From: a halophilic archaeon SHRA6
GTDB lineage: Archaea; Halobacteriota; Halobacteria; Halobacteriales; Haloferacaceae
NCBI GenBank assembly: GCA_005239175.1
Contig: SOPS01000001.1
Span: forward strand, 930,001-994,000
Reading direction: 5' to 3'
DNA length: 64,000 nt
Made by a program: the position numbers and the translations under genes. The notes beneath the pieces are model-generated. The model ran no database searches, was not told the origin of the DNA, and saw only the letters and a list, made by a program, of their open reading frames with translations. How positions within the stretch are numbered: position 1 is the stretch's first letter; the number at the start of each line of letters is the position of its first letter. Positions 32,926-43,553 of the stretch are shown here, in pieces.

Positions 32926-33372
32926 ATGGCTAACTGTCCATTGGCGGAAGACTGTCCACAGTTCTCCGAACAGATCAACGGGATGGGCTGTCAACACTAC
33001 GGCGACAAAGGCGGCGCAGAGTGGTGTAACCACTACGAAATGCCGATCAACGAGCTGAAACAACAGCCCGTGAGACCCGGCGAGGAGGTCGTCGTCGACA
33101 TCACAGACATCCACGAAAGCGGTGCCGGCGTCGGCCGAACAGAGGACGGCTTCATTGTCCTCGTCGACGGCGTCTTGCCCGATGCCCGGGCGAAGGTTCG
33201 GATCGACCGGGTCAAATCGAACCACGCCAAATCGAAGGTCGTCGTCGAACGGCTGCCGATGGAGGATGAAGAGGACAGTGATCCAGAAGAGTCGGGGTAT
33301 CAGGGTCGAAACGATCGCCGCGATCGCCGTGGCGAGGCGCTCGGCAGCCGCGACAACTTCTGGGGCAAGTAA
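32926..33372 (+). CDS. TRAM-domain RNA-binding protein; integration target
   Basis: 148 residues. An N-terminal cysteine cluster (CPLAEDCPQF, GCQHYG, WCNHYE) may bind zinc. The TRAM beta-barrel runs about 45-110 (VVVDITDIHESGAGVGRTEDGFIVLVDGVLP), an RNA-binding module that works as an RNA chaperone in some archaea. An acidic/arginine linker leads to the terminal NFWGK. The codons for FWGK and the stop are the left attachment repeat of the integrated element, so insertion leaves the protein intact. Confidence 0.9.
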   Translation: MANCPLAEDCPQFSEQINGMGCQHYGDKGGAEWCNHYEMPINELKQQPVRPGEEVVVDITDIHESGAGVGRTEDGFIVLVDGVLPDARAKVRIDRVKSNHAKSKVVVERLPMEDEEDSDPEESGYQGRNDRRDRRGEALGSRDNFWGK

Positions 33373-33374
33373 CT
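33358..33374. repeat. Left attachment repeat (attL)
   Basis: TTCTGGGGCAAGTAACT, identical to 42940-42956; the match extends to 20 bases (33355-33374) with one mismatch. It spans the last four codons and stop of the TRAM gene. Confidence 0.88.
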
Positions 33375-33375
33375 G

Positions 33376-33396
33376 AATATAGGTGTATCCGATACA
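33376..33396. repeat. Left-end palindrome and inverted end motif
   Basis: Just inside attL, GTGTATC-C-GATACAC is a 15-base near-perfect palindrome. AGGTGTATC within it recurs inverted just inside attR as GATACACCT (42919-42927). Such inverted end motifs could be arm sites for the integrase, an excisionase site, or an operator for the gene at 33432. Confidence 0.6.
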
Positions 33397-33431
33397 CAAG
33401 AACAAAGTAGTTGGGCTGTGGACAGTTATGT

Positions 33432-34007
33432 ATGGCCCGATTGAATCTGACGGTTCCTGAAAAGAAGAAGAAGAAGTGGGAACAAGCCGCCAAAGAGCAT
33501 CCTGAGGCCGGTGGAAATCTTAGCGCGTTAGTTCGTCACTCTGTCGAGAAAGAAATCTCCGATAGTAATTCTACTGAAAATATTTCTGAAGAAGTGCTAA
33601 TTAAACTCGGGAAGTTAGGAGATCAACTTACCGAAGTCACCGAACGAATTGAATTGATGGAAACCCGGCTTACCTCTTTGGAGAGCCAATCCACGGACGA
33701 ACCCGACATAGCGGATCTTACTGGGGAGGTGTTTGACGTTCTCCCGAACGAGAAACCGGGAACACCTGAATGGATATCCAAACGGAAAGAACTGGATGAC
33801 GAACTACAGGCTATTGAACAAGGACTGATTGATGACAAATCCGAAAGTGTACGTAAGTCTCGATATGGATGGGAGGGTGACATAGAAGGATTAGTTCAAG
33901 CCCTTGACAAACCCAAATATATGGTTCAGAAAGCGATTGACAAGCTCCGGGAGAATACGCATTTAGTTCGTTCAACTGACGACGGACGCTATTACAAGGT
34001 AGATTAG
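33432..34007 (+). CDS. Ribbon-helix-helix / winged-helix regulator beside the integrase
   Basis: 191 residues from ATG 33432. The first 45 residues look like a ribbon-helix-helix (ARLNLTVPEKKKKKWEQAA, then GGNLSALVRHSVEKEI). A coiled coil (about 60-95) follows, and the C-terminus is winged-helix-like (GDIEGLVQALDKPKYMVQKAIDKLRE). It ends one base before the integrase ATG, so the two are co-translated. I infer a role in control or direction of integration/excision. The palindrome at 33381-33396 upstream may be its operator. No named family recognised. Confidence 0.8.
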   Translation: MARLNLTVPEKKKKKWEQAAKEHPEAGGNLSALVRHSVEKEISDSNSTENISEEVLIKLGKLGDQLTEVTERIELMETRLTSLESQSTDEPDIADLTGEVFDVLPNEKPGTPEWISKRKELDDELQAIEQGLIDDKSESVRKSRYGWEGDIEGLVQALDKPKYMVQKAIDKLRENTHLVRSTDDGRYYKVD

Positions 34008-34008
34008 C

Positions 34009-34998
34009 ATGTCAGTCCAATCTAAGCCACTTCAGTCCTTCCTAGAAAGGGAGAAAGAGAAACAAAAAAAGAACACATACAACAACCGTAAGTCGGGAAT
34101 CAAAGCCTTTGACACATGGCTACAATCAACTGAATATACAGTTGATGATGTTGGGTTTGAGGAGATCGAGGATTTCGCTACTTGGCTAACTACAAAGAAA
34201 GGGAATAACGGGATATCGGACCAATCCGCTAACCTGTATATTCAACAAGTCGATCTGTTCTATTTCCGTAAAATCAAAAAAGAGCGTGTAGCTGAAGCCG
34301 ATGGAAGAAGAGTCAAAGAGTCCGAGATTTTTACTCCCGTGGATAATGCTCAACTCAATCTGAATCTTACAGAGTCCGAACGGGCTAGGCATACGCATGA
34401 ACGGGATCGCAAAGGACTCACAGTTGAGCAAATGGAGCGTATGATTGAAGCCGGCGATAGTTTCAAATCACAACTATGTCTGAAGCTGCTGGGTGGAACT
34501 GGTTGTAGGCCTTCAGGACTCCGGGATCTACGAGTTCAAGATGTAGATTTGGAAACGGAGAGGGTCAAGATCCGATCGACAAAGACGACTAACTCAAGAG
34601 AGGTGCCAATATCAGAATCTGTCTTGGAGTATCTGAATCTATGGATTAATCATGGACGCAGGGACGGATGTTATTATGCAGAGTCGACCGACTATCTAAT
34701 ACCGGGAGAGCAATCTGAGCAAATCGGACGGACGTATTTGCGTGATACTGTAGATAGATTAGCCAGAGAAATCGGTATTCAAGAGGACATCTACACAGAC
34801 GGGGCAGGACGGACCCGAAAAAAGTACAATCCCAAGAGCTTCAGAGTAGGTTACATTAGCCATATGAAAGACAAAGTAAGCCCCAAAGAATGTCAGTATC
34901 TCGCCGGTCACAAGGATATTGAGACGACGCTTACGTACTACACAGAGGTTTCAGACGACGACTTGGACAATATCCAGTCCAAGGTACCTGAAATATAA
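34009..34998 (+). CDS. Tyrosine recombinase (integrase)
   Basis: 329 residues. N-terminal SAM-like DNA-binding half (FLEREKEKQKKNTYNNRKSG...) and C-terminal catalytic half. Catalytic residues seen: Arg167 in GTGCRPSGL, Lys192, Arg279 in NPKSFRVG, His301 in LAGHKD, and Tyr310 in TTLTYY. The usual HxxR box reads KSFR, so the first histidine is lysine. It should cut and join the 17-bp core. The intact gene inside the element, not split by att, sets it apart from SSV-type integrases whose gene is disrupted on insertion. Confidence 0.94.
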   Translation: MSVQSKPLQSFLEREKEKQKKNTYNNRKSGIKAFDTWLQSTEYTVDDVGFEEIEDFATWLTTKKGNNGISDQSANLYIQQVDLFYFRKIKKERVAEADGRRVKESEIFTPVDNAQLNLNLTESERARHTHERDRKGLTVEQMERMIEAGDSFKSQLCLKLLGGTGCRPSGLRDLRVQDVDLETERVKIRSTKTTNSREVPISESVLEYLNLWINHGRRDGCYYAESTDYLIPGEQSEQIGRTYLRDTVDRLAREIGIQEDIYTDGAGRTRKKYNPKSFRVGYISHMKDKVSPKECQYLAGHKDIETTLTYYTEVSDDDLDNIQSKVPEI

Positions 34999-35492
34999 TA
35001 ATAGTAGTACAAAATAGGGATTCGATCGACTGTAACTCTCTGTTCTCTCTTTGGTTCTCTCTCAAGTCACAATCAATCTGAGAGTAGCTGAGTTACTTTG
35101 TATGCCGTTCTATGAGATTCGTTGTGGTAAGTAGTGGTTTGGGCCATATCGTCTTAGAGAGTCACTCAGTTTCTTTGTATGCTGTTCTGTGAGATTTGAG
35201 AGGAAGAGATATAGAATACCTACTTGTCGATCGACTGAGAATCGAATTTTGTTGAGTGTGAGAAGATAGAATTAGAATGAGAAAATTAGAACAGAGAAGA
35301 GAAGCAGAAATTAGCTAAGAAATAGTCTTGGAAAGGTTAGAAAAGGATTGCTCAAACTTTAGTCAAGCGTATCAAATCACATTTTTCCCCGAGCAAAAAG
35401 TGTTAGTCAAATGTCTATTAATTGGTGCCGTTTTTTATACAAGTAATATTTCTCAACCAGCTATGACCGGTTTAAACCCCTGAAAAGTAAGC
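34999..35492. other. AT-rich intergenic region of the element
   Basis: 494 bases without a convincing gene. It holds an imperfect 41-base direct repeat (35081-35121 and 35158-35198), and two CGATCG sites. It is bounded by the integrase stop and the leftward AN1 gene stop, so it is a convergent 3' spacer. Confidence 0.55.
35081..35198. repeat. Imperfect direct repeat, two 41-base units 77 bases apart
   Basis: Both units read AGAGT-n-CTTTGTATGC-n-GTTCT-n-TGAGATT, about 80 percent alike by eye, at 35081-35121 and 35158-35198. Confidence 0.6.
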
Positions 35493-36089
35493 TTAGAACA
35501 TCCAGAACCACAAGACTGCGGCTATCAGTACAATAGCCAACAGTACAATCAGCCACCGTGAATTTTGATCCGTATCTTCCTCGGTGCCATGGTCTTCTGT
35601 TTTTTGGCTCCCTGCAACTGAGCCATCAGGATTAACATCAGGCGACGCAGCATAGTCGGGCTCGACCGTTTTGCCGGGCAAAGACCCTAGTTCGACTGTT
35701 TCGTAACTACTGTCAGGCCCATGATCGCTGGATTCGATCGTTTTTCGTCTTGATTGGATTTTATCCGTTCGATCGACAGAGGATTGTGATAGGTTTGAGG
35801 GGTTATGGGCTTCTGCGGTCGTTTCATCATCGGGTTGTTTAGGCGATGATTCTGATTGAGATTGGTTTTGACCAACAGCTTTTCTAATATCCTGAATCTG
35901 TTCGACAAATTCGGATTTGTCAGTATCATCTTCTGCGGAAAACCATGCTTCAGTATTATCGAACTTTAACAACCCAACGCAACTGTGTTTTTCCGGCAAA
36001 CGGTGGTCTACACAGAACTTCTGATTGCAGTAGTTACAGGTGTACGACAAATCTCGCATATTCTGCTCGCAGACCTTACACTCTACCAT
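35493..36089 (-). CDS. AN1-type zinc-finger protein with C-terminal membrane anchor
   Basis: 198 residues. Residues 4-37 form an AN1 finger: C4, C7, C18, C21, C26, H29, H35, C37. A long disordered linker rich in Ser, Gln, Asp and Pro follows (about 55-175), and the last 20 residues (RWLIVLLAIVLIAAVLWFWM) are one membrane helix, so the finger should be held at the inner face of the membrane by a tail anchor. AN1 fingers in eukaryotes bind ubiquitin-system partners; in haloarchaea they occur in short proteins of unknown role. An element-borne cargo gene of unknown purpose. Confidence 0.85.
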   Translation of the reverse strand: MVECKVCEQNMRDLSYTCNYCNQKFCVDHRLPEKHSCVGLLKFDNTEAWFSAEDDTDKSEFVEQIQDIRKAVGQNQSQSESSPKQPDDETTAEAHNPSNLSQSSVDRTDKIQSRRKTIESSDHGPDSSYETVELGSLPGKTVEPDYAASPDVNPDGSVAGSQKTEDHGTEEDTDQNSRWLIVLLAIVLIAAVLWFWMF

Positions 36090-36354
36090 TTGTCTGAGTA
36101 TCTACGTACAAACTATTAGTTACTGTGAAAGTTCACTATTCATGGATGTTGGAATTTTATGTTGCTCTGAAACCCCTAAAACATCTGTTGTTGCCAAATT
36201 GAATCTTTTTATTTTGATATTCAATTAACTTGTATACTGTTACCGAGCACTTAAATAGTTTAAGATACAAAGTTAAACAAGCACAAACAATACAATTGTC
36301 TAACTGAGATCGAAAAAAGCGGGTTGTTACCAGCAACCCGGAAGATGCCAAATT

Positions 36355-37926
36355 ATGTCAACAATTAAATCTAACGGGACGTTTATTCATAAACCTGTCG
36401 GTCGTGAAACAGGTTCTAATGGTAGTATAGGATCTAAAAATATTTATAATCAATTTGTTCGGTATGCTAGTTCAAACGCCAAACAAGAACCTGAGCTTCG
36501 ACATATTGATGATAAGATACCTGATAATGCTTGTTTTGTTTCTCCAATATACAACTTGAACAAGAGTCAAATATCAGAACAACATAACTTGTCGAACCCG
36601 CATGCAGTATCTGATCGAAACATCGCTAACAAGCTACAGAATATAGCACAAGAGCAACAGACGGTATTATATCCTGTTTATGTTGAGTCAGATGCCCCGG
36701 TATCATTTAACGAGCAAATTGATTGGATTCAGGGATTCTGTCGGGAGTATCTTAACGTCGAACCAGATCGTTGTAGTTGGTACTACTCCGGTAACCGTTC
36801 GATTCATGCTCACGTACCATTATTAGCGACAGAGATACAGATTGATAGCCTTAGAGAGTACGGTAAGCAGTATGAGTATGACATTGATGCTCAAGTCTAC
36901 TCCCGAAAGCGACAGTTTAGGCTCCCCGGAGTAGAACACACCAAGACTGGATTACGAAAGGTACGGATTCAACCGGATTGGAACAACGACAGGATCATTC
37001 GAAAAGCGACTACAACGGACGTGAGTACACCGGAGACGTTTCGGGATATATTGAACCATACGTTCGGTTCGGACTTATTGCAACGACCACAAAGGTATCT
37101 GTGGGAGCCTGCAGACAGTAGTGAACCAATCGACCCGGGATTGAACGATTGGGAGTCACACTATACGCATATGCCGTGGTCAACTCTCCAGAAGTGGAAA
37201 GCACACTATTCGACCCCGGTATCTCCCTATGCTAATGCTGGTAATGGTAATCGTTCGTTGCTCGTTGCAAAAATAGTAGATGGGGAGTATGGAGAGAAAA
37301 GAAAAAAACTTGGAGAGTATGAAGGTGAACAACCCTACACCTTCGTCCCCTCAGGTGTGTTGAAATTTTTCGGTTGCGATAGGGAATACACTACTACAGC
37401 TGATTACCGTCCCGTCAAACTCTCCAAGGCAGACTATGAGAAGTTTGCTGATCTGGATATTGAACCGGGAGATATGTATGCTGTAATCGGCGGTAAATCT
37501 CGCAAGAGTCGAGTATTCAAGCTCTCTACCTTTGAAGCAAACACTATAGCCAGAGGTGAGAGGTTTAGAGGTTGTTTAGATGTACTTGAATACTTTGAAT
37601 ATGAAACTGGCCAAGCTGGATTGGATGGATCGGGACGGACGGGAGAGATCGGTGTAAATGAAATTGAGGATACCAAAGCGCACACTCTACAAAAACAAGC
37701 AGAGAATAAAGGTATTGACACTCTCACACACGTTGAACGAACGACAGTGGCAAACAGGTTGCTACAGATTCGTGGAGTCGATGAAACGAGAAAGTGGTTT
37801 AAACAGCAGTATGGGGAAGACTTTGACAGAGAGTTAACCGATAATCAGCTACGGAGTATTTGTGATAGATTTGAAGATTTGCCAGACTATGATTGTACTA
37901 GTAATGTTGAGAGTCTAGAGATATGA
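36355..37926 (+). CDS. Primase-polymerase-like replication protein
   Basis: 523 residues. The N-terminal 210 residues carry three segments that fit archaeo-eukaryotic primase/PrimPol motifs: VESDAP (acidic pair 111/113), SGNRSIHAHVPL (146-155), and YDIDAQVYSRKRQFRLPG followed by HTKTGL (176-200). The remainder is not recognised; it ends with helical segments (LLQIRGVDETRKWFKQQYG). I infer that it primes or copies element DNA during replication. The gene has element-type AT-rich codon use. No separate Rep or helicase gene is present, so this is the sole replication candidate. Confidence 0.7.
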   Translation: MSTIKSNGTFIHKPVGRETGSNGSIGSKNIYNQFVRYASSNAKQEPELRHIDDKIPDNACFVSPIYNLNKSQISEQHNLSNPHAVSDRNIANKLQNIAQEQQTVLYPVYVESDAPVSFNEQIDWIQGFCREYLNVEPDRCSWYYSGNRSIHAHVPLLATEIQIDSLREYGKQYEYDIDAQVYSRKRQFRLPGVEHTKTGLRKVRIQPDWNNDRIIRKATTTDVSTPETFRDILNHTFGSDLLQRPQRYLWEPADSSEPIDPGLNDWESHYTHMPWSTLQKWKAHYSTPVSPYANAGNGNRSLLVAKIVDGEYGEKRKKLGEYEGEQPYTFVPSGVLKFFGCDREYTTTADYRPVKLSKADYEKFADLDIEPGDMYAVIGGKSRKSRVFKLSTFEANTIARGERFRGCLDVLEYFEYETGQAGLDGSGRTGEIGVNEIEDTKAHTLQKQAENKGIDTLTHVERTTVANRLLQIRGVDETRKWFKQQYGEDFDRELTDNQLRSICDRFEDLPDYDCTSNVESLEI

Positions 37927-38038
37927 TGATGAGAAAGAAGAGTGTAGAATCAGTTATACTGCAAGAGATGTAAGTAGAGAGTCTAAAAATGCAAAATTCG
38001 GGTGTCAGTTACTTCAAGAATATATAAAGGAGTAAACT

Positions 38039-38226
38039 ATGAATGTAACCATAAACGGACATAGTCACAATGAACCGACATATAAACAGCTTCGACTAAC
38101 TATTTCAAACGGTACTTTGTATTGTGCTAATGAGGATCTTCAGAGAGAAACTGGTATGTCTGAACGGAAGATTGCGTAAAAGCGACTATCCATTATTTAC
38201 GAGAAGAAAATTACGTGATATCATAA
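38039..38226 (+). pseudogene. Small winged-helix-like gene broken by a frameshift
   Basis: From ATG 38039 a 46-codon frame reads to TAA at 38177-38179, ending LQRETGMSERKIA. Moving to the next frame at 38176 gives VKATIHYLREENYVIS and a stop at 38224-38226, which completes a helix-turn-helix plus wing pattern. So one base appears gained or lost around 38174-38178. A TATATAA box (38020-38026) and an AAGGAG ribosome site eight bases before ATG show a normal gene start. It could alternatively be an authentic 46-residue peptide. Confidence 0.55.
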
Positions 38227-39090
38227 TTGTTCTAATGTATCTAAAATTTTATTTTTTAATTCACTCTCACTAATTTCATCGTCTGAATAGGCAATTGCCC
38301 ATTCATTTTCAATTCTAAACCTACCGACTGGTTCTTCTCCGGGTTCAGACATTTCAGCAATTAGTTGTTTAGTGGGAATCCCCTGAAGGATTGCGCTGTA
38401 ATATACTTCTTCAACATTCATAATATCGTGAACAATTTCATTAGGCTCTGTGGATGTTGTTTCATAATGAATATGTAGGTCATCTTCTTCAATAGAGTGA
38501 TCTGCAAGGTTCAAACCGAAAACCTCCAACTGTAAGTCAAAGATTTCCATTATATTTTCATTTGTTGACCTGATTTCAATAGTTGAAGTTATTTCATCAT
38601 CTTCCGAATGTATTCTGAGATCGTACTCATCCGGTCCAATTTTTGATGTATCTATATTAATTATATGTATTTCTTCTTCATTTGGCTCAATTGTATATTC
38701 TTTTGTATTAACTATCTCTCCCGCAAATTCTGTTGTTATCTTTTTAGTTCCTTCAACGTTTCCTCTATTTTTGATATCTACAGACACTTCTATAGTTTTT
38801 CCTTGTACAAATATTTCGTCTTTCGGTGATATCCCTGATAATGAAAATATTGATAGTTGTTCTTCCTCTTCTTCTTGATTTGCTTCCTCATCTTCTGTAG
38901 CTTGCTCTTCTTCCTCAGTTTCTTGCTCTTCTTCCTCAGTTTCTTCCTCAGTTTCTTCCTCTTCAGATTCAGTTGATGTTTCTTCTTCTGATTCCTCTTC
39001 TTGATCTGGTTCTTCAGAGTCGTCACCAGTACATCCAGCTAATGCAATTGTTCCACCCAGTCCAATCAGGACTTTGCGACGGTTTAGCAT
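38221..39090 (-). CDS. Tat lipoprotein with Glu-rich linker and CARDB-like domain
   Basis: 289 residues. N-terminus LNRRKVLIGLGGTIALAGC is a Tat signal with lipobox. Residues about 22-80 are nearly all Glu, Thr and Ser, a flexible acidic spacer. The next 90 residues (VQGKTIEVSVDIKNRGNVEGTKKI) look like a CARDB/Ig-like adhesion-type fold. The C-terminal 100 residues are unrecognised. It is anchored outside the cell. The signal peptide is shared in style with the two other lipoproteins of the element. Confidence 0.85.
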   Translation of the reverse strand: MLNRRKVLIGLGGTIALAGCTGDDSEEPDQEEESEEETSTESEEEETEEETEEEEQETEEEEQATEDEEANQEEEEEQLSIFSLSGISPKDEIFVQGKTIEVSVDIKNRGNVEGTKKITTEFAGEIVNTKEYTIEPNEEEIHIINIDTSKIGPDEYDLRIHSEDDEITSTIEIRSTNENIMEIFDLQLEVFGLNLADHSIEEDDLHIHYETTSTEPNEIVHDIMNVEEVYYSAILQGIPTKQLIAEMSEPGEEPVGRFRIENEWAIAYSDDEISESELKNKILDTLEQL

Positions 39091-39228
39091 AGAAGATAGT
39101 GATATTTCATTAATAATAAACGTAGAAGATAGTTACAATCAATTTATTATTGATATTCCAGAGTATGTGGTGATTTCTTGTATGGATTTTTCATATAAAT
39201 TGTATTGATGAAGTATCGTAACCGGAGT

Positions 39229-39651
39229 TCAGTCTACGAGTTTAATATCTACTAACTCAATCTCGGGTACAGTCCTTTCTCCCGTTAATGAAGTATAGGT
39301 ATGTAATCCTTGTACGGTTCCCCAGATATTGACGTTATCACCACCTTGGAATGGGTCTCCATCCCACCGACAGAACAGATATTTGTCACCTAACATCTCC
39401 TGATCGGGGTGGGAAATAATCAAGGTAAATTCGCCACCCTCATCATTAAAATCTGCTACACGCACATCCGAATAATGAACTGGCTCTCCCTCCCAATCGC
39501 TAATATTTCTGAAAAGCTCTTCCCATCCCGGAGACTCAGCTTCTTCTTTGACTTCTTCTTCGCTCGGTGGAATAAGTTGTTCAAGTTCAGAACAGCCAGA
39601 TAGTGCGCTTATCCCGCCAAGAGCAATCAGGACTTTACGACGCTTTGGCAT
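39229..39651 (-). CDS. Short Tat lipoprotein, OB-fold-like
   Basis: 140 residues. KRRKVLIALGGISALSGC is a Tat lipoprotein signal. The mature part of about 120 residues (GEPVHYSDVRVADF, GGEFTLIISHP, NVNIWGTVQGLHTY) reads like a small beta-barrel resembling an OB fold. No catalytic residues stand out. The signal-peptide DNA is nearly identical to that of the lipoprotein at 41894, and the upstream noncoding block is shared too, so the two loci are duplicates with different mature domains. Confidence 0.82.
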   Translation of the reverse strand: MPKRRKVLIALGGISALSGCSELEQLIPPSEEEVKEEAESPGWEELFRNISDWEGEPVHYSDVRVADFNDEGGEFTLIISHPDQEMLGDKYLFCRWDGDPFQGGDNVNIWGTVQGLHTYTSLTGERTVPEIELVDIKLVD

Positions 39652-39735
39652 ACGATTCCCAACTTATCCTATAATCTTAGTTTTTGTGACTTTCTATATA
39701 ATTTATAAGTCTTATAGAGTCTATCGTCTTTATAC

Positions 39736-40132
39736 TCACCTTTCTAAATAATAGAAATACGAATATTTCTTTCTGATTATACTTGCAATGTTATCCCCTA
39801 TCCCTCTACATATATCCGATTTAACGATTTATTTATTTATTGATTCCACTGTAATTCTTATTGTTCGCTCACTATGGATCTAGTGATTATCATTAGTAAT
39901 CTAGTTGTTCTAGATATGGTCTTAAATTTAGACAAGTAGAGTATAAGTTCCTAATAAGTTCCCAACTAGATAGTATATATTTCTATAATTCCTTTCTTCT
40001 TTTTCCTTCCTTTACAAAAATATATAAAAAGTTTTTTCCTTCCTTTTCCTTCCTTATCACTAGCCAGACTGAACGATATGCCAACAGCAAACTAAATCCG
40101 AAACTCACGGTGGTGCCTCATAGAGCATGTCC
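39736..40132. repeat. Duplicated noncoding block, copy A
   Basis: About 400 bases matching 42170-42559 (copy B). Strongest identity is over the palindrome TCACTA-TGGAT-CTAGTGA (39869-39886), the following TTCTAGATATGGTCTTAAAT, and the tract TTCCTTTACAAAAATATATA. Each copy lies upstream of one lipoprotein gene. Confidence 0.88.
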
Positions 40133-40264
40133 ATTCTAAGGTCACTAAATGTGCTTCTAAGACACATATTATGAGATCGATCTTGCTCCGAGGGGTATCC
40201 ATCGTCTCAAGCAAAGGAGCCACAAATTATGGGTGCTACATACCAATAATTGAACCTCTGAGAG
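40133..40264. repeat. 130-bp unit, copy 1
   Basis: Begins ATTCTAAGGTCA, contains GTGCTTCTAAGACACATATT and CTTGCTCCGAGGGGTATCC, and ends near TTGAACCTCTGAGAG. Directly continues block A. Confidence 0.9.
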
Positions 40265-40370
40265 AGGCAGTCGTTAAATTGTGCAAGACGGGTCGGTATA
40301 TGGGGACAATTGAAACTCTAAGAGAAGCTATCAACGGCCAAGATGGATTCACCGCAGTACATAGAGATCG

Positions 40371-40504
40371 ATTCTAAGGTCAATAAATGTGCTTCTAAGA
40401 CACATATTATGAGATCGATCTTGCTCCGAGGGGTATCCATCGTCTCAAGCAAAGGACTCACAGATTATGGGTTCTACATACAAAATAATTGAAACTCTGT
40501 GAGG
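40371..40504. repeat. 130-bp unit, copy 2
   Basis: Same unit, 238 bases downstream of copy 1 in direct orientation, nearly identical over its first 100 bases. It lacks the 400-base block in front, so the unit can be copied alone. Confidence 0.9.
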
Positions 40505-40676
40505 ATACTGCTAGCTACTATCTCAATGACGATGTTATAATAATCAGAGACAATTCCCTTAGTGAACATTGGTCTTACAGCATCAGACAGTCTTGTGGTC
40601 GTACTCCCATGTTTGACGAAGAGGAAATGAATATTATGTCCTTTCTGTGAGCAACAGTCGATTTTTAATTACTAAT

Positions 40677-40820
40677 ATGACTTTTCCAACTCCAGTACGA
40701 GCGACTTTAACTGACGAACAGCTTATTCAGGAGTACGAGAACGAACTATACGATAGCGATCTATCAGAACGTGAGTTAATCAGAATGGCTCTGAAAATCT
40801 ACTTTGGTGAAAAGAATTAG
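40677..40820 (+). CDS. Tiny ribbon-helix-helix-like protein
   Basis: 47 residues. A short strand (VRATLTDEQ) is followed by two predicted helices (LIQEYENELYD and SERELIRMALKIYF), the size and pattern of a minimal CopG/RHH DNA-binding protein. ATG 40677 follows an AT-rich box (TTTTTAATTA). It ends 33 bases before the convergent lipoprotein stop. It could control copy number or the element's own genes. Called from pattern only. Confidence 0.55.
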   Translation: MTFPTPVRATLTDEQLIQEYENELYDSDLSERELIRMALKIYFGEKN

Positions 40821-40853
40821 AAACGTGAAAAGAATAGTATTTTTGTTAATTAA

Positions 40854-41894
40854 TTATCTTAACTGCCAGAATGTCTTATCTCCAGTAGAAAAGAGGCCAA
40901 ATTCAAACACCCAATAAAGCGGTGATAGTCCTTCTTCAACTTCATATACCAATTCACCTCTCCGGGTTTCGCCGTCTGATAGTGGGGTTCCTTCATCAAA
41001 TCCACGATCAAGTTGACTAGAAGCCGATAGATCTTCTTGATAAGTATATCCTTGCTCATCTTTTATCATCATCTGTAGAATTGTTGAGAATCTTTCTTCT
41101 TCACCCGTATTGTTTGTGATTGATATATTCACAATCACATACTCATTACCACTATCTGGTTCAGCAAACATACCTAGTTCCGACTCTGTGCGAATCTCAT
41201 TAACAGCTACTTCCACATCTCCAAATTCAATAGTATCACCAACATCATATACATCAATAGCTAGTTCTTGGGTAAGTTCGTGGATACTATCTGCTTCTTC
41301 TTCTAAATTAATCGTTGCTCGTTCGATTCCGCCGAAGATAGATACATCAAAGTCAAAAACAAGTTCTAAACCGCTGGAATCTTCTGGAATCTCAAATGGG
41401 ATACCCCCACGTTCGACTTCACCGGGGACAAATTGACCGTCATTAAATGTCGCTTCATCACCCGGAGCAAAGGTTTGGTCGTATTGGTAATCTTCGTCAT
41501 CTCTCATTCGAGTCTGAAGTAGGTTACTGACAGATAGATAATCATCTGACGTGTTCTTGAGGGCTATCTGAACAAGGGCAAATTCATTCCCGGCATCAGC
41601 ATCATAGAAATCACCGAAATCAACCCCACGATCAAATGATTCAACCACTAGCTCCATCTGATCGCCTGAAACAAGATCTCCTACTGCAGCAGTAACAGAT
41701 TCTGCTTCAGGCTCTGTCTCTTCATCATTACCATTCCCGGTGTCATCATTACCATTCCCGGTGTCATTATTACCATTCCCGGTGTTACCATCATTCTCTT
41801 CATCTGCGGGCTCTGGTTCTTCATCTGTCTCCCCACTACATCCAGCTAGTGCTACCATTCCACCAAGACCAATCAGGACTTTACGACGCTTCAC
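40854..41894 (-). CDS. Tat lipoprotein with two DUF4352-like domains
   Basis: 346 residues from GTG 41894. KRRKVLIGLGGMVALAGC is a Tat lipoprotein signal; a linker with three DTGNGND repeats follows. The mature protein holds two DUF4352-type immunoglobulin-like domains (about 65-190 and 195-330), each with the FALVQIALKNTSDD / YVIVNISITNNTGEE strand. DUF4352 lipoproteins are surface proteins of unknown role. GTG 41894 is chosen because DNA alignment with the paralogue at 39651 places its start there; ATG 41918 upstream is an alternative. Confidence 0.85.
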   Translation of the reverse strand: MKRRKVLIGLGGMVALAGCSGETDEEPEPADEENDGNTGNGNNDTGNGNDDTGNGNDEETEPEAESVTAAVGDLVSGDQMELVVESFDRGVDFGDFYDADAGNEFALVQIALKNTSDDYLSVSNLLQTRMRDDEDYQYDQTFAPGDEATFNDGQFVPGEVERGGIPFEIPEDSSGLELVFDFDVSIFGGIERATINLEEEADSIHELTQELAIDVYDVGDTIEFGDVEVAVNEIRTESELGMFAEPDSGNEYVIVNISITNNTGEEERFSTILQMMIKDEQGYTYQEDLSASSQLDRGFDEGTPLSDGETRRGELVYEVEEGLSPLYWVFEFGLFSTGDKTFWQLR

Positions 41895-42169
41895 TATACG
41901 ATTTCCAGTTAATAGCATAGTTTTAATTTCGTGACTTTCGCTATAATTGATGAATAGGCAGTATCAGAGATTTTCACAGATATTTGTCTGTATATCATAG
42001 GAAGATTTTAGTATGAAACATAATAAGTAATTTTATCAGAATGCCTTACTCTCTCAGATTCGAGGATCTGATGCATTGCAGTGAAATTATCTTATATTAT
42101 TAATTTTATGTGCTCTATAAAAGCTAAATGTACAATTTTTAAGTTCTATAGCCCCTATTTTCTTGATAC

Positions 42170-42559
42170 CTACCTTTCTAAGTAACGGGAGTAGAGTCGT
42201 CTATTTGGATTACACTTGCAATGTTCTCTCCTATCCCCCTAGATATATCCGATTTAACGATTTATTTTACTATCTGTCAATTCTCCTGTAACTATACTGC
42301 TCGCTCACTAGGGATCTAGTGATTATCATTAGTACTCTAGTTGTTCTAGATATGGTCTTAAATTTAGACAAGTAGAGTATAAGTTCCTAACTAGATAGTA
42401 TATAATTCTATTATTCCTTTCTTCTTTTTCCTTCCTTTACAAAAATATATAAAAAGTTTTTCCTTCCTTTTCCTTCCTTGCTTATCACTATCCAGACTGA
42501 ACGATATGCCAACAGCAAACTAAATCCGAAATCACGGTTGTGCCTCATAGAGCATGTCC
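42170..42559. repeat. Duplicated noncoding block, copy B
   Basis: Partner of 39736-40132. Its palindrome TCACTAG-GGAT-CTAGTGA (42303-42320) is more perfect than that of copy A. Lies upstream of the DUF4352 lipoprotein. Confidence 0.88.
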
Positions 42560-42690
42560 ATTCTAAGGTCAATAAATGTGCTTCTAAGACACATATTATG
42601 AGATCGATCTTGCTCCGAGGGGTATCCATCGTCTCAAGCAAAGGACTCACAAAAAATGTACATAGATGCTATAATTTGAACCTCTGAGAG
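42560..42690. repeat. 130-bp unit, copy 3
   Basis: Continues block B as copy 1 continues block A; the last 35 bases have diverged but the end TTGAACCTCTGAGAG is kept. Confidence 0.88.
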
Positions 42691-42939
42691 AATTCAAGCC
42701 ATGGATGTCTAATGTGCTTCTGAAGCAAATGAGAGGATTTCTAAAAAGAAATCTCCTTGAGCTTTTGACGGAGTCGTTCTCTCTTTCTATGTAGAATCAT
42801 TATGTAAGATTTAGATAATAGCATGATTTATACTAATCGCTATACGAAATAGGGGTGTGGATTTGAGAGAGTGTTATTAGAATATTTCGCTATTTCTAAT
42901 GTGGTTGAATGTGTGTTTGATACACCTAATATAAGTAAT

Positions 42940-42956
42940 TTCTGGGGCAAGTAACT
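42940..42956. repeat. Right attachment repeat (attR)
   Basis: TTCTGGGGCAAGTAACT, exact copy of 33358-33374. GC-rich host sequence resumes immediately after it. Confidence 0.88.
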
Positions 42957-43055: not shown

Positions 43056-43553
43056 ATGGCAGATGGCGGGAGCGATCGAGCGGTGGCCTCCGACGAGAGT
43101 GCCGACGTCGATGTCGACGAGCTTCTCGCGGCGGTTGGGTTCGATCCGGAGACGAACGTGCTCACAGCACGACAGGCGGAGGTGCTCGCGCTGCGCGAAC
43201 AGGGAATCAAACAGCAGACGATCGCCCGGATGCTCGGCACCTCGCGGGCGAACGTCTCGAGCGTGGAATCGAGCGCCCGCGAGAACATCGAGAAAGCGAA
43301 AGAAACGGTGGCCTTCTCGGAGGCGTTATCAGCACCCGTCCGGCTGACGATCGAGGCCGGGACGGACCTGTACGACGTGCCGAAACAGGTGTACGACGCC
43401 TGCGACGAAGCCGGCGTGAAGGTCAACTACACCGCGCCGGACCTCATGAAGGTCGTCAGCGACGCTGCCGGCAAGGCTGTCGAAGGCCGAGAAATCAAAC
43501 AACGGGTGTCGATCGGGGTCACGAGCGACGGAACCGTCCGAGTGCGCAGGTAG
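43056..43553 (+). CDS. Tfx family DNA-binding protein
   Basis: 165 residues from ATG 43056. The N-terminal helix-turn-helix (LTARQAEVLALREQGIKQQTIARMLGTSRANVSSVE) is typical of Tfx, first described as an activator of the molybdenum formylmethanofuran dehydrogenase operon in a methanogen. The C-terminal half is the conserved Tfx domain (LYDVPKQVYDACDEAGVKVNY). The target in haloarchaea is unknown; a MOT1-like transporter gene lies 13 kb away. Its 3' end is duplicated. Confidence 0.93.
   Translation: MADGGSDRAVASDESADVDVDELLAAVGFDPETNVLTARQAEVLALREQGIKQQTIARMLGTSRANVSSVESSARENIEKAKETVAFSEALSAPVRLTIEAGTDLYDVPKQVYDACDEAGVKVNYTAPDLMKVVSDAAGKAVEGREIKQRVSIGVTSDGTVRVRR

Follow-up and report, generated by a model that had tools for sequence, protein, structure and literature searches.

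A plasmid-like element integrated at the 3' end of a haloarchaeal TRAM-domain gene carries a regulator-integrase module associated with protein-coding sites

The window examined here, a 64,000-nucleotide stretch of DNA from the haloarchaeon SHRA6 (contig SOPS01000001.1, positions 930,001 to 994,000 of the forward strand), contains a block of 9,582 bp (~9.6 kb) between two short direct repeats at the 3' end of a gene for a TRAM-domain protein. Attachment (att) repeats, one of which rebuilds the target gene, an empty site in a relative and an intact integrase gene inside the block confirm, at the level of sequence, that it is an integrated, site-specific element of the tyrosine-integrase type and presumably a mobile one. 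It is very probably a cryptic integrative plasmid, whose integrase belongs to a group that, judging from mapped relatives, recombines at short (10-20 bp) protein-coding sites rather than at tRNA genes.

The element and its TRAM target

A 17-bp sequence (TTCTGGGGCAAGTAACT) is present in exact copies at 33358-33374 and 42940-42956. It extends to 20 bp with one mismatch (AACTTCTGGGGCAAGTAACT at 33355-33374 versus AATTTCTGGGGCAAGTAACT at 42937-42956). The true pair has an ungapped repeat score of 17, versus 13 for the best chance pair, and no third site is found across the 3.36-Mb genome, even allowing two mismatches. The element has ~40% G+C in a chromosome of ~62%, with values of 0.34-0.44 inside the repeats and ~0.62 outside. 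An earlier note on this DNA had described a repeat of this kind around an AT-rich block that begins with a regulator-integrase pair. The exact coordinates and the G+C steps agree with this description, and the regulator and integrase genes follow the left repeat. The features are as follows.

32926-33372, + strand: TRAM-domain protein gene, 148 amino acids, the target, intact (PF01938, E 4e-11)
33355-33374, + strand: attL, AACTTCTGGGGCAAGTAACT, which agrees with the empty site of H. salinum
33380-33389, + strand: inner inverted arm TAGGTGTATC, a candidate integrase-binding arm that pairs with 42919-42928 (shuffle p 0.01)
33432-34007, + strand: regulator, 191 amino acids, with an N-terminal RHH-like part, a coiled coil and a C-terminal winged-helix-like part (AlphaFold model, pLDDT 74)
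34009-34998, + strand: tyrosine integrase, 329 amino acids (PF00589, E 1e-24, and a SAM-like N-domain)
35493-36089, - strand: AN1-type zinc finger protein with a C-terminal hydrophobic helix (PF01428, E 4e-9; sequence)
36355-37926, + strand: archaeo-eukaryotic-type primase, probable replication protein (phrog_16345 primase, E 1.6e-6; PriS/Pri1 fold alignment)
38221-39090, - strand: predicted Tat/lipobox lipoprotein, RRKVLIGLGG..LAGC (sequence)
39229-39651, - strand: second predicted Tat/lipobox lipoprotein (sequence)
40133-40224, + strand: 92-nt non-coding repeat, copy 1
40371-40462, + strand: 92-nt non-coding repeat, copy 2
40677-40820, + strand: small ORF of 47 amino acids, weakly RHH-like by sequence alone, without a family match
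40854-41918, - strand: lipoprotein with DUF4352 domains (PF11611, E 3e-42, two stretches)
42560-42651, + strand: 92-nt non-coding repeat, copy 3
42919-42928, + strand: inner inverted arm GATACACCTA, which pairs with 33380-33389
42937-42956, + strand: attR, AATTTCTGGGGCAAGTAACT
43056-43553, + strand: TFX-type regulator gene outside the element, the usual neighbor adjoining TRAM across haloarchaea (PF14601, E 2e-31)

The left repeat comprises the last codons and the stop codon of the TRAM gene (NFWGK-TAA at attL). Because the stop codon falls within the repeat, the TRAM protein is unchanged, as the earlier note had proposed from its FWGK-stop reading. The att copies differ in that attL carries AAC, as does attB, and attR carries AAT, which fits Campbell recombination inside the repeat. 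A hidden tRNA target was rejected, the window's sole tRNA gene lying at 10 kb.

The TRAM gene is found in 382 of the 392 genomes of the order and is single-copy in nearly all of them. Two genomes represent the genus in this set, and the empty site that the earlier note had asked for is present in the sole congener, Halalkalirubrum salinum N1521 (G328). There, TRAM and TFX are adjacent, with one repeat copy (AACTTCTGGGGCAAATAACC), and the sequence is contiguous over the joined window flanks (86% overall, 92-93% for each longer flank). The evidence for an empty TRAM site comes from this one congener. The search it had proposed, for TRAM genes followed by an integrase, revealed none at ~50 loci in other haloarchaea, half of which reach only 1.5 kb past the gene. 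TFX, where it is detected at these loci, lies close downstream of TRAM, usually within a few hundred bases. Given the H. salinum empty site and the ~50 integrase-free TRAM-TFX loci, this adjacency is, on sequence comparison, ancestral and the insertion derived, and TRAM was rejected as a recurrent hotspot. In Haloterrigena salina (L157, 10507-12300), ~1.8 kb with a metallo-beta-lactamase-like ORF and without an integrase lies between TRAM and TFX, reflecting either another insertion or the gain of a gene.

The regulator-integrase module and its sites

Alignment with relatives places the candidate catalytic residues of the window integrase at R167, K192, K276xxR279, H301 and Y310. The full-length integrase described in the earlier note is present, with R, K, R, H and Y aligned and with the box II histidine changed to lysine. 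Its box II reads KxxRV (K276, V280) versus HxxRH in most relatives and YxxRH in one (G320). Because of this replacement, activity of the enzyme is not assured. The R..KxxR..Y pattern of SSV-type integrases is present through K276xxR279 but is not diagnostic, as relatives have HxxR or YxxR. Assignment to the suicidal SSV type was rejected because the integrase gene (34009-34998) is intact and attL (33355-33374) lies outside it. XerA was rejected on a score of 100 bits with the NCBIfam XerA_Arch model versus a cut-off of 220. The SNJ2 type was likewise rejected: tblastn to phages at 1e-3 yields no SNJ2-type virus for the window integrase, whereas it does for the integrase of locus L075, discussed below.

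The integrase is 24-31% identical to its eight nearest relatives. In these eight, the regulator gene ends within ~30 nt of the integrase start; its product begins with an RHH-like part, continues with a coiled coil and in most cases has a winged-helix-like C-terminal part. A second round took the 20 further best profile matches. The regulator lies directly upstream of the integrase in all 20 of these and in 29 of 29 modules overall. No tRNA gene is found at the integrase end in any of the 29, or in the 3 kb upstream of the 20 second-round modules. The integrase profile matches 109 of the 392 genomes at E 1e-35, and the modules examined are the best of these matches rather than the outer part of the group. 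Since a fold search with the regulator gave no confident match, its RHH-like and winged-helix-like parts are recognized from sequence pattern and secondary-structure prediction. The protein probably acts as an integrase helper or as a repressor.

Candidate att sites in relatives were derived from pairs of short repeats at G+C steps. A clear pair is absent from most of the 20 second-round loci, and 'coding' refers here to 13 mapped sites, window included. All 13 elements for which both att copies could be mapped are inserted in coding sequence; they have repeats of 10-20 bp and lengths of 3.6-15.6 kb. Their targets are as follows.

RHH gene, start codon (MPKISVEVPEELL, PF01402): G187, G146, G209, G160, G198
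rfcL, start region: G106, G128
PLD-family gene, interior: G320
Volactin gene, interior: G386
Eco57I-type methylase gene, interior: G061
Type II/IV secretion ATPase gene, interior: G331
Enoyl-CoA hydratase gene, 3' end: G153
TRAM gene, 3' end: the window

Empty sites were found for three targets, TRAM, volactin and the RHH gene. The volactin site is intact in eight congeners (88-97% over the joined 353 bp), and the RHH site in G392 is contiguous over the joint with a single ATGCCTAAGATA. The sites in G153, G331 and G128 are defined by a repeat and a G+C step, without an empty site, and those in G160 and G198 rest on 10 bp, supported by their common RHH target. The script that joins flanks takes the longest ORF on any strand; gene-start sites, for which its output was antisense noise, were read in the known frame. 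CdrS was rejected as the identity of the RHH target gene, because the gene downstream is transporter-like and not ftsZ2.

At the PLD, volactin, methylase and secretion ATPase sites, the joined flanks give an open frame through the site, and for volactin and PLD both gene halves match the same Pfam family. These interior insertions break their target genes. The volactin gene, which encodes an actin homologue, is split in one haloarchaeon (G386:C54; L097, L140). In another (G061:C6; L138), the insertion disrupts the gene for an Eco57I-type restriction-modification methylase at a YNGGL site, which would silence a defense-type gene. At the 3'-end site in G153, TAT TAA from the element follows TGG CAC, and W-H-Y-stop is kept. 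The frame is also kept at the RHH start-codon sites, where the DNA upstream of the ATG is replaced by element DNA; a Shine-Dalgarno-like GGTGAG stretch precedes the ATG in G187, G146, G209 and G160. In G106, rfcL begins with ATG GTA from the element instead of ATG ACC. A 105-bp imperfect repeat beside a window-type integrase in G005 (L208, 2236-2340 and 11155-11259) spans the start of a type IV pilin-like gene. It may represent an att pair or two pilin paralogues, and was left out of the mapped sites.

Excision of the window element would yield a circle with the predicted attP junction AATTTCTGGGGCAAGTAACTGAATATAGG. Inverted arms exceed shuffles in five of 14 attP sequences rebuilt from element-side flanks (the window, p 0.01, and G106, G128, G331 and G153). 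In these five, the chromosomal flanks score lower than the attP arms. Because the other nine do not exceed shuffles, attP symmetry appears to be a property of some members only.

Backbone, proposed route and alternatives

The predicted structure of the 36355-37926 protein, together with its motifs, places it in the archaeo-eukaryotic primase superfamily. Residues ~30-245 of the model (pLDDT 72) align to PriS/Pri1 with a VIA-align Z of 9.9 over 161 residues, and its relatives share the conserved blocks ESD, SGxRSIH and D..RLPG..H. A sequence search of the PDB with the primase profile gave no useful match. Relatives occur in 23 of the 392 genomes, its own included. No match was found in plasmid or phage collections and no close relative in IMG/VR viral contigs. 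Viral contigs gave no close relative of the integrase either, and a set of profile hits is partial (21-46%).

Twenty primase relatives were fetched with their flanks and, with G329, form the backbone sample. A direct repeat of 21-62 bp overlaps a tRNA gene end in 11 of these. The repeats in G329 and G160, of 60 and 53 bp, lie at the 5' end of the gene for the HFX_2341 regulator, which in G329 scores 573 bits with NF051475. The integrases of these two elements are 72% identical to each other, and that of G329 (L075) is SNJ2-type, with 46% identity to SNJ2. The element in G386 has a window-type integrase. Because primase relatives carry tRNA-site, SNJ2-type or window-type integrases, the plasmid backbone swaps integrases. 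The closest primase relative (49%) is that of G329, whose element (L075, 3005-3064 and 12453-12512; L166) lies ~5 kb downstream of TRAM in the same genome. Thus, two related elements with unrelated integrases are found in the same neighborhood.

The three 92-nt blocks are near-identical and lie inside a longer duplication of ~560 bp (39.7-40.26 and 42.13-42.69 kb). They have no copy elsewhere in the genome, fold no better than shuffles and are possibly origin- or partition-related; Rfam gave no match over the element. Profile searches, with libraries that are incomplete for virus genes, recognized no structural or spike protein in the element. The presence of a primase, a tyrosine integrase and three lipoproteins, with no recognizable virus gene, argues for an integrative plasmid.

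In the route envisaged for this plasmid, the circular form would carry an attP in which short inverted arms flank a copy of the final five codons and the stop codon of TRAM. The integrase would recombine it conservatively with the same sequence in the chromosomal gene, and the neighboring RHH-like/coiled-coil regulator would serve as an accessory factor or repressor. At the left junction, TRAM is restored complete with its stop codon, and TFX retains ~100 bp of upstream sequence. Once excised, the circle would be replicated by the primase.

The size of the element and the placement of its integrase at one end resemble small haloarchaeal proviruses, and some primase relatives are accompanied by SNJ2-type integrases (46% to SNJ2). 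It is nevertheless unlikely that a decayed, pleolipovirus-like provirus rather than a plasmid integrated at TRAM, as no structural protein is recognized, neither phage records nor IMG/VR contigs contain a relative of the primase and the window integrase does not match SNJ2-type viruses. It is highly improbable that the repeat is incidental and the block an assembly artifact or a genomic island that homologous recombination fixed. Although only one occupied TRAM site is known, the repeat is unique in the genome and coincides precisely with both the stop codon and the G+C steps, the congener has a single-copy empty site, an integrase lies at the edge and the same architecture recurs in other genomes.

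A more serious alternative, though still a doubtful one, accepts integration by the proposed route and holds that the element has been stuck since box II changed to KxxRV, with K276 and V280 in place of the usual histidines. Yet SSV-type integrases use R..KxxR..Y and pNOB8-type enzymes R..YxxR..Y (PMC8371274), and the G320 relative has YxxRH. All ORFs of the element are also intact, and its att copies are one base apart in 20. The integrative plasmid is the preferred reading.

Relation to known systems and implications

Archaeal integrases have been described as users of tRNA genes, with scattered exceptions. Protein-gene attB sites in archaea were already reported for BJ1, Msmi-Pro1 and NitGar-E6 (PMC8371274, section 19). 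Among thaumarchaeal elements, 14 of 68 lie in protein genes, at sites described as 3'-distal (PMC6563490). The 2021 review states that coding-gene sites were never tested and asks about dyad symmetry (PMC8371274). Novelty lies in the regulator-integrase module. Open PMC texts yielded no description of haloarchaeal integrases that form a group with a constant RHH-like/coiled-coil partner and use coding sites wherever these were mapped. The window integrase may belong to one of the unnamed families of the 2021 review (PMC8371274). The earlier note had suggested a distinct family of integrative plasmids that target protein tails. The integrated element and its protein-gene site stand, but TRAM is not a family target, the backbone is common to tRNA-gene elements and relatives' sites also include gene starts and interiors; the distinct part is the module.

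Thaumarchaeal elements such as NitEve-E2, with a 13-bp att, similarly combine a tyrosine integrase, a short att at a conserved gene 3' end and an empty-site check in a relative (PMC6563490). Unlike the 14 that are all 3'-distal, the window group is haloarchaeal, has an RHH-like/coiled-coil partner and also uses gene starts and interiors. SNJ2-type systems, also small haloarchaeal elements, have an integrase in an operon with coiled-coil and DNA-binding helpers (PMC8371274; PMC13107129). However, SNJ2 uses a tRNA end, the window integrase is not SNJ2-type by sequence and its one partner protein seems to combine the RHH, coiled-coil and winged-helix parts, in contrast to separate helpers. Bacterial dusA-associated integrases use a gene 5' end, where element sequence may restore the gene (PMC4482086); they mainly target one gene in Proteobacteria, whereas at least eight different genes serve as targets for the haloarchaeal group. 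Halorubrum virus BJ1 likewise has its att in a haloarchaeal protein-coding gene, with the HMG-CoA reductase gene as candidate attB (PMC8371274, section 19), but is a virus where the window element is plasmid-like. PrimPol-PV1 elements (PMC5862659) are likewise integrated and encode both an AEP-type primase and a tyrosine integrase, whereas the window primase family was found here solely in haloarchaeal genomes.

A widespread and coherent haloarchaeal group in which each mapped site is coding offers many natural att pairs. These can serve to probe specificity, the role of the helper and the consequences for host genes in organisms that can be cultured. We tentatively suggest, as a less probable extension, that the regulator-integrase group is a class specialized for short coding-sequence sites that readily retargets and, at gene starts such as those of the RHH gene and rfcL, swaps the host promoter and leader for element sequence. 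If so, integration could be a reversible means of rewiring or silencing host genes, for example those for the clamp loader, volactin or a DNA methylase.
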